A stretch of DNA of 41,996 bases from NCBI GenBank assembly GCA_903916765.1, contig CAIWXV010000014.1, positions 1-41,996 on the forward strand. Direction: 5' to 3'. This DNA is from an uncultured Dehalococcoidia bacterium (GTDB lineage: Bacteria; Chloroflexota; Dehalococcoidia; Dehalococcoidales; Fen-1064). This document shows, one piece after another, positions 2,999 through 36,610 of this stretch. Position 1 is the stretch's first letter, and every line of letters begins with the position of its first letter. The translations under genes and the position numbers were made by a program. Under the pieces are notes generated by a model. The model was not told where the DNA came from and made no database searches. It saw only the letters and a program-made list of their open reading frames with translations.

Positions 2999-3052
2999 TC
3001 ACTGGCTTAAATATGTAACAATAAGTACGAGAGAAAACGTCAAACTATTCAT
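2999..3052 (-). CDS. Branched-chain leader peptide MNSLTFSLVLIVTYLSQ
   Basis: 18-codon ORF just downstream of promoter and upstream of terminator; Leu/Val/Ile-rich (LVLIV). Confidence 0.75.
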   Translation of the reverse strand: MNSLTFSLVLIVTYLSQ

Positions 3053-3062
3053 AATAAAGCTA

Positions 3063-3091
3063 AGATAACATAATCTAAGAGTAGTTGTCAA
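3063..3091 (-). promoter_or_regulatory. sigma70-type promoter of ilv leader/ilvD-ilvB
   Basis: TTGACA - 17 nt - TTATCT on minus strand. Confidence 0.75.
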
Positions 3092-13726: not shown

Positions 13727-16168
13727 TTATCTCACCACGATATTTACCAGTTTCCCGGGCACATAAATAATATTTACGACCTTTTGACCTTGGATGAAAG
13801 GCTTTATTTTTTCGCTTGCCTGAGACATCTTTTTTGCTTCTTCCTCGGTAATGGAAGCAGGTATAGTAATACGGTCGCGCAGTTTACCGTTGACCTGCAC
13901 TACCAGTGTGATTTCATCTTCTTTTGCCAGTTCCTCATCCCATTTGGGCCAGGGCTGGTTATGGATACTATACTTGTGTCCCGTCCTGTGCCATAACTCT
14001 TCCGCAAGATGAGGAGCCGTGGGCGCTATCATTAGGACCAGTTTCTCGATGCTGTTTTGCCAGGCATCGTTCGTCACATTCGCCGATTCCTTGACCTTGT
14101 TGAGGTAATTCGTGTATTCCATTAACGCGGCAATCATGGTATTGAAACGCAGACGGTCCATGTCACCCGTTATTTTTTTGATAATCTGGTGTGTGATTCG
14201 CTCCAACTCTTTCATCGCGGTGGCATCATTTATTTTCGGTTGGTATTCTTCCAGCGCCAGCTTCCAGATACGATTCAGCCAGCGACTGACTCCGCTGATA
14301 CCCGTATCGAACCACTCGCCGCCCTGTTCCCATGGTCCCATGAACATCATATAGGCGCGTACCGTATCGACACCCAGTTCATTGACATATGCATCGGGGT
14401 TGATAACATTACCTTTGGATTTGCTCATCTTCTGATGGTCAGCAATGATAATGCCCTGATTGAAGAGTCTTTTGAACGGCTCTCCGAAATCGATTAATCC
14501 CATGTCCCTGATTGCTTTAGTGAAGAAGCGGGCATAGAGCAGATGCATTACGGCGTGTTCCGCACCACCGGTATAGATATCGACGGGCATCCAGTATTTG
14601 GTTTTCTCCGGGTCAAAAGCAGCTTTGTCATAGTGCGGACTACAATAGCGTAGAAAATACCAGGACGAACACATAAAACCATCAATAGTATCCGTTTCCC
14701 GTTTCCCGGGGCTGCCGCACTTCGGGCATTTGGTGTTAACCCATTTCTCGTTATACTTCAGAGGCGATTCTCCTTGGTGGCTGAAATCGGCTTCTTCGGG
14801 GAGTAGAACCGGTAAGTCTTTTTCCGGCACAGGCACAGTGCCGCATTTATCACAGTAAATCATCGGTATGGGTGCGCCCCAGTATCTCTGTCGTGAAATC
14901 AACCAGTCGCGCATGCGGTAGCTGATTGTTCCCTTTCCCCAGCCTTTTTGTTCCAGAAATGCGGTAACAGCCTTAGTACCTTCCCTGTTAGGCAATCCAT
15001 TAAATTGGCTGGAATTAATCATAGTGCCATCGTCGATATAGGCGTTCTCTAACTCCTCACCTTTCCATTCCGGAGGGGAAATAACCGTCTTGATGGGGAT
15101 GTTATATTTCTTAGCGAAAGCAAAATCGCGTTCATCATGCGCCGGCACTGCCATCACGGCTCCGGTGCCGTAACCGACTAACACGTAATCGGCAATCCAG
15201 ACAGGGACTTTGTCTCCGGTCAGTCTGTTAGTCACATAAGCGCCGGTGAAAACGCCGTCTTTTTCTTTTTCAGTGGAGAGGCGCTCTATCTCTGTGAAAC
15301 GGCGGGTTCTGGCAACATAAGCTTCAACCTCAGCTTTTTTATCAGGTGTGGTCAGTTTTGCTACTAGCGGATGCTCCGGTGCCAGTACCATGAAGGTAAC
15401 CCCGAAGACAGTATCCGGTCGGGTGGTAAATACCTTGATTTCCTTTTCTGCCACACTGGGGTGGTCGAGTGCAAAGGAAACCTCGGTGCCGTAACTTTTG
15501 CCGACCCAGTTCTTCTGCATTATCTGAATACGTTCAGGCCAATCTATTCCTTCATGTTCCATCAGTTCATCGGCATATTTCGTGATACGGAAAAGCCACT
15601 GTTCCAAATCCCGTTTTACAACTGGGGTTTCACACCGCCAGCAAAGCCCGTTTTCTACCTGCTCGTTCGCCAGTACTACTTGACATTGAGGACACCAGTT
15701 GACAGGTGCCTTGCCCCGGTAGGCTAAATCATGCTGGAACAATTTGGTGAAGAACCACTGAGTCCATTTGTAATATTTGGGATCGCAGGTAATAACTTCT
15801 CTGTTCCAGTCGTACATTGCCCCCATAGTCTTTAATTGACGGCGCATGTTCTCGATGTTCGCCATTGTCCATTTGCGAGGATGAATGCCGCGTTTGATAG
15901 CCGCATTTTCGGCGGGTAGTCCGAAAGCATCGAAACCCATCGGATGTAGGACATTGTAGCCCTGTAACCGCTTGAAACGTGCATAAACGTCGGATGGTGC
16001 CATCGCATACCAGTGCCCGATATGCAGGTCGCCGGAGGTGTAGGGGAACATCGTCAGAGCATACCATTTAGGTCGTTTGCTGTCCTCTTTGACTTCATAG
16101 AGCTTGTCGTCAGCCCATTTTTTCTGCCACTTTTTTTCGATTTCCGGTGCATTATATTTGTCTATCAT
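13727..16168 (-). CDS. leuS: Leucyl-tRNA synthetase
   Basis: 813 aa; FPYTSGDLHIGHWYAMAPSDVYARF, GTGAVMAVPAHDERDF, KMSKSKGNVINPD. Confidence 0.98.
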   Translation of the reverse strand: MIDKYNAPEIEKKWQKKWADDKLYEVKEDSKRPKWYALTMFPYTSGDLHIGHWYAMAPSDVYARFKRLQGYNVLHPMGFDAFGLPAENAAIKRGIHPRKWTMANIENMRRQLKTMGAMYDWNREVITCDPKYYKWTQWFFTKLFQHDLAYRGKAPVNWCPQCQVVLANEQVENGLCWRCETPVVKRDLEQWLFRITKYADELMEHEGIDWPERIQIMQKNWVGKSYGTEVSFALDHPSVAEKEIKVFTTRPDTVFGVTFMVLAPEHPLVAKLTTPDKKAEVEAYVARTRRFTEIERLSTEKEKDGVFTGAYVTNRLTGDKVPVWIADYVLVGYGTGAVMAVPAHDERDFAFAKKYNIPIKTVISPPEWKGEELENAYIDDGTMINSSQFNGLPNREGTKAVTAFLEQKGWGKGTISYRMRDWLISRQRYWGAPIPMIYCDKCGTVPVPEKDLPVLLPEEADFSHQGESPLKYNEKWVNTKCPKCGSPGKRETDTIDGFMCSSWYFLRYCSPHYDKAAFDPEKTKYWMPVDIYTGGAEHAVMHLLYARFFTKAIRDMGLIDFGEPFKRLFNQGIIIADHQKMSKSKGNVINPDAYVNELGVDTVRAYMMFMGPWEQGGEWFDTGISGVSRWLNRIWKLALEEYQPKINDATAMKELERITHQIIKKITGDMDRLRFNTMIAALMEYTNYLNKVKESANVTNDAWQNSIEKLVLMIAPTAPHLAEELWHRTGHKYSIHNQPWPKWDEELAKEDEITLVVQVNGKLRDRITIPASITEEEAKKMSQASEKIKPFIQGQKVVNIIYVPGKLVNIVVR

Positions 16169-16206: not shown

Positions 16207-16232
16207 AAAAAAGCCGCCCTTGTGGGGACGGC
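16207..16232 (-). terminator. Intrinsic terminator in the leuS leader (attenuator)
   Basis: Minus strand GCCGTCC...GGGCGGC followed by TTTTTT. Confidence 0.88.
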
Positions 16233-16262
16233 CCCTATTTAATCATGTGGAGACGGACCCAC

Positions 16263-16316
16263 TTATCGGCCTGAATATGTGATGGTAAGTGTGAAGGATA
16301 GAAGCTGTCCGTTCAT
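16263..16316 (-). CDS. Leucine leader peptide MNGQLLSFTLTITYSGR
   Basis: 18-codon ORF directly after a consensus promoter and before a terminator; same length and similar sequence to the ilvD leader peptide. Confidence 0.72.
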   Translation of the reverse strand: MNGQLLSFTLTITYSGR

Positions 16317-16324
16317 TAATAGGT

Positions 16325-16353
16325 AAAATATCACAACTGGTGGTTATTGTCAA
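16325..16353 (-). promoter_or_regulatory. sigma70-type promoter of leuS leader
   Basis: TTGACA - 17 nt - TATTTT on minus strand. Confidence 0.75.
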
Positions 16354-33439: not shown

Positions 33440-34504
33440 CTAGCCTCCGTTTTGTTTTATGCCAATCGCTTTATGTATGCCCTGACAAGCAGTGATGAGT
33501 TCCTTCAATTCGTCGGGTGTGATTTGTTGCTGGCTGTCTACCAGTGCCTCTACCGGATTATGATGCACTTCGACTATCAAGCCACAGGCACCGACAGCAA
33601 CACTCGCACAGCTCAGGCTGAAAATCAGGTCTCGTCGCCCTGCCGCATGACTAGGGTCGACAATCACCGGTAGGTAGGTCTCTTTCTTTAGAACTGGCAC
33701 TGCCGCCAGGTCAAGCGTGTACCTAGTATAACTTTTACCCTTACCCAATGGCAAGATACCCCGCTCGCAGAGAATGATATCTTTGTTTTCTTCTGCCACC
33801 ATATACTCGGCGAAGGACAGGAATTCTTCAATACCAGCGCCGAAATGACGCTTGTAAAGTATCGGTTTGCCTGTTCGAGCAACTTTGACGAGCAGGTCCT
33901 GGTCGTACATATTTCTGGAGCCAATCTGAATGATGTCTACATATTTGGCTACCAGATCCACTTGCGATTCACCTCTGATTTCAGTAACGACAGGCAATTC
34001 GAATTTGTTGCCTGCTTCGCGGAACCACTCCAATGCTTCAGTTGCTTCCTCTTCTCCTGCAGAGCCCAGTCCCTGGAAGGAGTGAACGGAAGAGCGTGGC
34101 TTGAAGATGCCACCCCTTAGCATTTGAGCGCCGGCTTTCTTAACGCCTTCGGCAATTTTGAAAAGTTGCTTTTTACTTTCCACTGCGCATGGTCCGGCGA
34201 TGAAAACCAGTTTATCCCCGCCGATTTCAACATCACCGACCTTGATGATTCTTCGCTCGCTTTCGCCTGTGAGTTTGGCATATTCACGACTGATTAGTTT
34301 ATAAGGTGTCTCGACCATCCTTGCCTCCTTTACTCCCGGTAATATAGCAAAGTGGTCAAACGGTATTTTGCGCTCATCACCGATAAGTCCGATGATGGTG
34401 CGAAAAGCTCCTTGAGAGACATCGGCACGCAGTCCGTGGCTTTCTATTTCCTTGATAACTGCGGCAATCTGTTCTTTAGTGGCATCGCTCTTCATGATAA
34501 TCAT
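33440..34504 (-). CDS. aroF: 3-deoxy-7-phosphoheptulonate synthase
   Basis: IAGPCAVESKKQLFKIAEGVKKAGAQMLRGGIFKPRSSVHSFQGLG...LYKRHFGAGIEEFLSFAEYMVAE...VDPSHAAGRRDL. Confidence 0.95.
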   Translation of the reverse strand: MIIMKSDATKEQIAAVIKEIESHGLRADVSQGAFRTIIGLIGDERKIPFDHFAILPGVKEARMVETPYKLISREYAKLTGESERRIIKVGDVEIGGDKLVFIAGPCAVESKKQLFKIAEGVKKAGAQMLRGGIFKPRSSVHSFQGLGSAGEEEATEALEWFREAGNKFELPVVTEIRGESQVDLVAKYVDIIQIGSRNMYDQDLLVKVARTGKPILYKRHFGAGIEEFLSFAEYMVAEENKDIILCERGILPLGKGKSYTRYTLDLAAVPVLKKETYLPVIVDPSHAAGRRDLIFSLSCASVAVGACGLIVEVHHNPVEALVDSQQQITPDELKELITACQGIHKAIGIKQNGG

Positions 34505-34788: not shown

Positions 34789-34849
34789 TGTACAGTTAGC
34801 CTCTCGTTCCCGGGACGGGTGGGAGGTTTTGTTTCTGTAAGATGATTAG

Positions 34850-36610
34850 ATGGATAATATCGAGAAAGACGAAAAACTGGACATGATGCGCCATTCGGCG
34901 GCGCATGTTATGGCGGAAGCCGTGCAATCGATGTTCCCCGATGCTAAATTTGGCATCGGCCCTACCATCGAATACGGTTTTTACTATGATTTCGACTTAT
35001 CTCGTTCTCTTAGTCCCGAAGACTTGCCGCTCATCGAAGCCAAAATGAAGGAAATTGTGAAAAGTAATTCTCCTTTCCTGAAAGAGATGGTTTCCAAGGA
35101 GCAAGCACGTAAATTATTCGCCAATCAACCGTATAAACTGGAATTGATTGATGAACTACCCGAAGAGCAGGTAACTATTTATAAGCAGGGTAATTTCACC
35201 GATATGTGCCGTGGTCCTCATGTTAGGTATACCTCTGCGATAAAGGCTTTCAAACTGATCACGATTGCCGGCGCTTACTGGCGTGGCAGTGAAAAAAATC
35301 CGATGCTCCAGCGTATCTACGGTGTGGCTTTTAACACCCAGAAAGAGTTGGATGAATATCTCATCCGTCAAGAAGAAATAAAAAAGAGAGACCACCGGAA
35401 AATAGGCAAAGACCTTGATCTTTTCGTGTTTTCTGATTTAATTGGAAAGGGTCTTCCCATTTTCACGGAAAAAGGGTCAGTCATCAGGCGCGAGTTGGAG
35501 CGATTTGTCGTCGATGAGGAAATCAAAAGAGGCTATAAGCATGTCTATACGCCTGATCTGGCGAAGGTTGAGCTCTATAAGACGTCTGGCCACTATCCCT
35601 ATTATAAGGATACAATGTACCCGGTGATGAAAGTAGACGAAGATGAGTTGATGCTTCGCCCTATGACTTGCCCTCACCACTACCAGTATTATGCCAGCAA
35701 ACCAAGGTCATATAAAGAATTGCCTTTTAGAATCGCTGAGTTGGCAAAGCAGTTCCGCTACGAAAAGTCGGGAGAGCTTAGCGGACTTCTGCGTGTCCGA
35801 AGCTTCTGCTTGGCTGATGCACACATTATTTGCAAGTCAGAACAGGCGGTTGACGAGATAATGCAAGCACTCGACCTCATAGAATATGCAGCGAACGTTC
35901 TAGGTTTGAACGCCGGTAGGAGGTACCGTCTGTCCCTGGGTGACCGGAAAGATGAGAAGAAATACTACAAGGATGATGCGGCTTGGGATTTTGCCGAGAA
36001 TGTCTTACGTCGGGTCCTGATACAGAGGAAAGCGAATTTCTTTGAAGCCGGAAATGAAGCGGCTTTTTACGGTCCCAAAATCGATATTCAGATGAAGAAT
36101 TTCGCTGGTAAGGAAGACACCGCTTTTACCGTCCAGTATGACTTCGTGGGACCGAAACGCTTTAAATTGGCCTACATTGACAGCGACGGAAAAGAAAAGG
36201 AACCGATTGTTATTCATCGCTCTTCGATTGGTGCGATAGAAAGAACTATGGCTTTTCTCATCGAACATTATGCCGGTGCGTTTCCCGTCTGGTTGTCACC
36301 GGTTCAAGCAGCAATTATTCCAGTATCTGACCAACATCTGGGTTATGCCCGTAAATTAGAAGCCGAGCTGAAAGCTATTGGTGTCAGGGTAATGGTAGAT
36401 GACCGGAATGAACGTATGAACCAGAAAATCCGCGAAGCTCAACTTCAAAAAATACCTTACATGCTGGTAGTCGGGGATAAAGAATCAGCGGATAACACGG
36501 TATCGGTGCGGTTACGTATCGGAGAACAACTTCCTGTTATGTCTTTTGAGGAGTTTAAGAAGAAAATCAAGCAGGTTATTAACGACCGTGTTAATGAATT
36601 GAAGCCGTAA
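34850..36610 (+). CDS. thrS: Threonyl-tRNA synthetase
   Basis: RHSAAHVMAEAVQSMFPDAKFGIGPTIEYGFYYDF, MRPMTCPHHYQYY, IHRSSIGAIERTMAFLIEHYAGAFPVWLSP; appears to lack an N-terminal TGS domain. Confidence 0.97.
   Translation: MDNIEKDEKLDMMRHSAAHVMAEAVQSMFPDAKFGIGPTIEYGFYYDFDLSRSLSPEDLPLIEAKMKEIVKSNSPFLKEMVSKEQARKLFANQPYKLELIDELPEEQVTIYKQGNFTDMCRGPHVRYTSAIKAFKLITIAGAYWRGSEKNPMLQRIYGVAFNTQKELDEYLIRQEEIKKRDHRKIGKDLDLFVFSDLIGKGLPIFTEKGSVIRRELERFVVDEEIKRGYKHVYTPDLAKVELYKTSGHYPYYKDTMYPVMKVDEDELMLRPMTCPHHYQYYASKPRSYKELPFRIAELAKQFRYEKSGELSGLLRVRSFCLADAHIICKSEQAVDEIMQALDLIEYAANVLGLNAGRRYRLSLGDRKDEKKYYKDDAAWDFAENVLRRVLIQRKANFFEAGNEAAFYGPKIDIQMKNFAGKEDTAFTVQYDFVGPKRFKLAYIDSDGKEKEPIVIHRSSIGAIERTMAFLIEHYAGAFPVWLSPVQAAIIPVSDQHLGYARKLEAELKAIGVRVMVDDRNERMNQKIREAQLQKIPYMLVVGDKESADNTVSVRLRIGEQLPVMSFEEFKKKIKQVINDRVNELKP

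Follow-up and report, generated by a model that had tools for sequence, protein, structure and literature searches.

The leuS gene, the putatively regulated gene of this locus, encodes a leucyl-tRNA synthetase (TIGR00396, 1054 bits) and lies on the minus strand at positions 13727-16168 of the window, as we call the whole stretch of 41,996 nucleotides that was analysed. Directly upstream of it, on the same strand, is a leader that spans positions 16353-16207. The leader begins with a predicted sigma-70-like promoter that matches the consensus (TTGACA-17-TATTTT, 16325-16353) and is conserved before leuS across all genomes of the window's family, and it continues with a 17-codon ORF (16263-16316), whose translation, MNGQLLSFTLTITYSGR followed by a stop codon, carries the control codons CTT, CTA and CTT for Leu5, Leu6 and Leu10. 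Because the ATG stands only 8 nt past the -10 hexamer, the ORF is predicted to be leaderless or nearly so. The stop codon is abutted by segment 2, GTGGGTCCGTCTCC (16249-16262), the 5' strand of a putative antiterminator, and the stretch GTGGGTCCGTCTCC...GGGGCCGTCCC (16262-16225) leads into the terminator and a T-run that ends at 16207. Segment 3, GGGGCCGTCCCCAC (16222-16235), is common to the antiterminator (2:3) and the terminator (3:4), and segment 4, GGGCGGC with a run of six T (16207-16219), completes an intrinsic terminator between the ORF and leuS. About 105 nt, ORF for the most part, separate the ATG of the leader from the end of the terminator. The promoter, the ORF, the Leu codons and the downstream segment had been named in the initial annotation, and each of these elements is present on the minus strand.

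A second leader of this kind (3091-2946, minus strand) precedes ilvD (1252-2919), the first gene of an operon that continues directly with an ORF read from its sequence as ilvB-like and cut by the contig end (1-1242), both on the minus strand. It comprises a consensus-matching promoter (TTGACA-18-TATCTT, 3062-3091), a peptide ORF encoding MNSLTFSLVLIVTYLSQ and a stop codon (2999-3052), and segments 2 (GTGGGCTCGTCTCC), 3 (GGGGCCGTCCCAC) and 4 (GGGACGGC) with a T-run (2946-2998), all on the minus strand. The two leaders therefore have in common a promoter, a near-leaderless 17-codon ORF, an antiterminator segment and a terminator, the stem of which is perfect in the ilvD leader and encloses a larger loop (CCACAA) in the leuS leader. 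Both peptides are 17 residues long and share M1, N2, S7, L10, T13 and Y14, as had been described. The alignment of the two leaders scored 50.5, whereas 2000 base shuffles averaged -9.0 (sd 4.9) and reached 17 at most; a strict core pattern occurs at exactly two places in the 1.37-Mb genome (an assembly of 149 contigs), namely the leuS and ilvD leaders, and a reversed control version of it at none; and a covariance model (R2) trained only on ilvD leaders matched the leuS leader of the window with 44.3 bits (E = 2.7e-10), its other matches in the window having E values of 0.13 or worse. Shuffled alignments, pattern search and ilvD-only model thus all reject chance similarity, and at the level of sequence the two cassettes are homologous. 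The proposal that a tRNA synthetase gene shares a peptide-leader cassette with ilv biosynthesis is supported by this homology and by the conservation described below, and its regulatory side is put forward here as a prediction.

To look for further members we scanned the genome with R1, a covariance model whose seed comprised leaders of ilvD and leuS and none of valS. Besides the ilvD and leuS leaders, it found one further strong place (E = 1.8e-12), between a coaBC-like ORF and a gene that NF004349 and TIGR00422 confirmed as valS, encoding valyl-tRNA synthetase. The valS leader peptide reads MTINPVVVVM before its stop codon, and the ilvD-only model matches this leader as well (47.0 bits). The matches next in rank, to a tRNA gene at E = 0.012 and to an unrelated terminator at 0.06, were rejected, and no other synthetase gave a credible match. 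The expectation that a covariance scan would reveal more members was thus borne out by valS; it failed for the genes that had been guessed, leuA, ilvC and ilvE, before which the scan found no member in this genome. The only credible members in the genome are those of ilvD, leuS and valS. The presence of homologous copies at several loci might suggest that a promoter-terminator unit devoid of regulatory function has been dispersed as a repeat or copied by recent conversion. Only three clear copies exist in the genome, however, all of them before branched-chain amino acid genes, and the position before leuS is kept in all 14 family genomes and that before ilvD across several families, so that such a repeat is a very improbable explanation.

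The occurrence of the cassette among relatives was followed by gathering the leuS and ilvD upstream regions of the order and scanning them for a promoter, a short ORF and a terminator. The cassette was recovered before leuS in 14/14 genomes of the window's family and in one genome of another, more distant family (G119); the leuS leader of G049 is the same in a near relative, the Dehalococcoidales MAG L205 (JAURWL010000163), for which reason we take the order to be Dehalococcoidales. Before valS it is present in 6 of the 13 family genomes with readable upstream DNA, the relatives being G044, G045, G046, G048 and G050 with runs of VVVV, VVIV or VVV; G049, whose contig is cut there, stands outside this count, and the cassette is absent upstream of valS in G047 and in genera g2 and g5. 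A leader peptide with a run rich in I, L and V was found in 29 of 50 ilvD upstream regions from several families, mostly as LVLIV, LVLV or a close variant. Across the order, 66 of 156 genomes gave a match at E up to 0.01, a count that includes ilvD leaders with no peptide. In a set of 393 genomes of the class, the matches outside the order were those of G471, G280, G160 and G415. Of the two that were read, neither was a convincing member: that of G471 (L320) is a T-box terminator, and no branched-chain gene was recognised downstream of that of G280.

The composition of the leader peptides tracks the downstream gene, with leucine before leuS, valine runs before valS and L-V-L-I-V before ilvD. 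Averaged by gene over 42 leaders, a leuS peptide contains 3.2 Leu, 0.3 Val and 1.0 Ile, a valS peptide 1.0, 3.7 and 0.5, and an ilvD peptide 2.7, 2.3 and 1.7. The leuS peptides have at least two Leu, mostly in runs such as LTLTL, LALAL, LLLAL and LILLL, and since they keep one Ile on average, their specificity for Leu is not absolute. When gene labels were permuted within genomes, the observed contrast was reached in 0 of 50,000 permutations, a result that speaks for these genomes and not for 42 independent trials, because the leaders are related by descent.

This composition bears on the possibility that the leader works without its peptide, the terminator sensing the NTP level, start-site choice, a protein or an RNA equilibrium, and the ORF being incidental or a relic. 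Some ilvD leaders of other families would fit such a scheme, for they keep the promoter, a GTGGG:CCCAC-like pairing and the terminator and leave no room for a peptide. However, the ORF is kept in every leuS leader read in the family, and an untranslated relic would not be expected to match its gene, with Leu codons before leuS and Val runs before valS; we therefore regard a peptide-independent leader as unlikely. The ilvD leaders with no peptide (L053 in G107, L055 in G068, L062 in G014 and L103 in G150) consist of the promoter and then only about 30-60 nt with CTGnAGGTGGGATTnCGGA...ATCCGTCCCCRC and the terminator, and the one at L085 (G027) is shorter still; they keep the antiterminator-like pairing despite the lack of an ORF.

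In the proposed switch, segment 3 (GGGGCCGTCCCAC) has two alternative partners, segment 2 (GTGGG..CG.CTCC) on its upstream side and segment 4 (GGGACGGC) on its downstream side. When transcripts were cut in silico before segment 4, the 2:3 antiterminator formed in 39 of 42 leaders, with about 10 expected pairs, and when GTGGG was masked in silico, as it would be by a ribosome standing on the stop codon next to it, the 3:4 terminator dominated in 41 of 42. In these folding models the antiterminator and the terminator exclude each other, and the former lies close enough to the stop codon for a ribosome on that codon to reach it. The cut leaders were on average 2.0 kcal/mol more stable than versions with a shuffled upstream half; within single leaders the 2:3 helix was no better than in shuffles, the shuffle test not being significant. 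Segment 2 hardly varies, which leaves the antiterminator with modest covariation. This covariation includes the ilvD leader of G121, in which segments 2, 3 and 4 change together (CTGGAG:CTCCAG, GTCT:AGAC) and both pairings are kept, and a compensating change in the valS leader of G046 (GTGGAC:GTCCAC). As for a 1:2 hairpin, a protecting or pause element that would bring termination back when the leader is not translated, a CGGAC:GTCCG pairing was seen only in G000 and G047; in the fold of the G000 leuS leader the peptide region pairs with segment 2, a pairing that is not general among the leaders. The equilibrium fold of the uncut leaders strongly favours one state in some genomes, and the switch would therefore depend on folding during transcription. 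To bring the arms of the seed alignments into register, a single C was deleted from the C-run of 5/14 rows (A3) and 3/8 rows (A4), and one G was trimmed from the G048 leuS row of A3; the edited rows served for searching only and were excluded from the pair counts. RNAalifold on a MAFFT alignment of 32 cores was uninformative because MAFFT misplaced the terminator arms.

As synthetase genes are often targets of T-boxes, we also considered a degenerate or divergent T-box, in which tRNA would bind the leader RNA directly. Genomes of the order do use T-boxes: ileS of this genome has a true one (109 bits), ileS was under a T-box in 6/6 genomes checked, and T-boxes were found on ileS, trpE or trpB in other genomes examined. 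This is in line with the T-boxes on ileS, trpE and trpB in Dehalococcoides (PMC2494555). The attenuator model, too, weakly matches the terminators of ileS T-boxes, because both use a CCGTCCC arm. At the leader itself, however, there was no T-box match in the window at the gathering threshold and none to either leader at E values as high as 10, the T-box consensus RGGTGGNACCGCG is absent, and the short distance from the ATG to the terminator leaves no room for a stem I; before valS, too, no T-box consensus was seen. No Rfam family, T-box included, reached its threshold over the leuS and ilvD leaders, so that no known Rfam element explains the same bases, and we consider a T-box of any kind to be highly unlikely here. 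The weak matches to ileS T-boxes, at L155 (G122:C40) and L320 (G471), fall on their antiterminator/terminator end.

Outside the window's family, leuS is often preceded by a different, start-proximal hairpin, GCTCTTCGCTG...GGCGGAGGGCTTTTATTTA (L012, L016, L020, L032, L033, L034 and L077), sometimes after a tRNA-like gene. A hairpin of similar layout, CCTCTCGTTCCCGGGACGGGTGGGAGG with a T-rich tail, stands in the window just past a TATAAT-like box on the plus strand (34800-34833), before thrS (34850-36610). The window also holds, upstream of aroF (33440-34504) of an aro operon, a leader ORF encoding MINSILMLNVSQRYYYYYFAFWGTKSA (34712-34629) and, after it, a terminator (34575-34541), all on the minus strand. 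Aromatic runs (YYYYYFAFW, YYWYYFYF, NFYFYWYF and the like) together with a CCCTCTCAAGCAGAGGG terminator were present in 12/12 family genomes with a close copy of aroF, and this leader has the appearance of a shikimate-pathway attenuator of composite Tyr/Phe/Trp type.

The leuS leader is best explained as a ribosome-mediated transcription attenuator of the classical type, a reading to which we give a probability of about 0.87. Whether the gene is transcribed probably depends on a short test peptide in which the matching amino acid is abundant. Transcription would start at or beside the ATG of the short test ORF. With leucyl-tRNA plentiful, the ribosome would reach the stop codon and cover the adjoining segment 2 (GTGGG...), segment 3 would pair with segment 4, and the terminator would form and turn leuS off. 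With charged tRNA-Leu scarce, the ribosome would stall at the Leu codons, so that segment 2, left free, would pair with segment 3 ahead of the synthesis of segment 4 and leuS would be transcribed. The homology, the conservation, the codon content that tracks the gene and the mutually exclusive predicted folds are properties of the sequences; the transcription start, the stalling, the read-through and the direction of copying, with ilvD first, are what we infer from them. By all sequence criteria tested, the 1:2 hairpin apart, the leader conforms to classical attenuation.

The same RNA core stands before ilvD-ilvB, leuS and valS, and because the three copies differ chiefly in their test-peptide codons (L-V-L-I-V, Leu and Val), we suggest that one cassette has been copied and retuned. 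It seems likely that the ilvD operon was the source of the core (the near-leaderless ORF and GTGGG...CTCC / GGGGCCGTCCCAC / GGGACGGC), that leuS received a copy of it and valS a later one, and that its specificity was changed mainly through an exchange of control codons, resulting in a modular branched-chain attenuator regulon that shares the work with the T-box of ileS. The order of events (ilvD, leuS, valS) is taken from their nested distribution only.

Attenuation of this kind is well known in E. coli, where ribosome stalling at control codons selects between antiterminator and terminator in pheST (pheM), ilvGMEDA, ilvB and leuA. The pheST operon is the classic peptide-attenuated synthetase and demonstrates that a synthetase can be controlled in this way. 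In contrast to the E. coli attenuators, the present cassette has a near-leaderless ORF and a single core, conserved in sequence, that is common to a biosynthetic operon and two synthetase genes. The T-box riboswitch (RF00230) likewise acts by antitermination upstream of synthetase genes, but it binds tRNA directly and uses no peptide. A survey of attenuation in synthetase operons was reportedly made by Lopatovskaya and co-workers in 2010; our literature search, which did not cover that survey, turned up neither a peptide attenuator of valS nor any report of this kind for the class. Candidate leuS attenuators have been predicted in Streptomyces (Seliverstov et al. 2005, PMC1262725), with pheST named as their gamma-proteobacterial counterpart, and the kind of attenuation is therefore already known, peptide attenuation of leuS being not unprecedented. 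The Streptomyces candidates likewise have a leader peptide with Leu codons, an antiterminator and a terminator before leuS (PMC1262725), although they belong to Actinobacteria and that paper reports no core shared with ilv or valS; the likeness is drawn from their description. The LEU element of actinobacterial leuA likewise consists of a short ORF containing Leu codons and of RNA that can fold in alternative ways, but by its description (PMC1262725) it acts before leuA through a pseudoknot that involves the Leu codons and the Shine-Dalgarno box and has no terminator, whereas the present leader precedes leuS and ends in an intrinsic terminator.

The paralogous set of three genes (ilvD, leuS and valS) and its valS member appear to be new. 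They would extend peptide attenuation of synthetase genes to Chloroflexota, with what is apparently the first case for valS, and divide the branched-chain synthetases of one genome between peptide attenuators and T-boxes. Such closely related RNA switches, which differ mainly in the amino acid counted by the test peptide, would amount to a natural codon-swap experiment, the history of whose copying and retuning may be traced directly through relatives.
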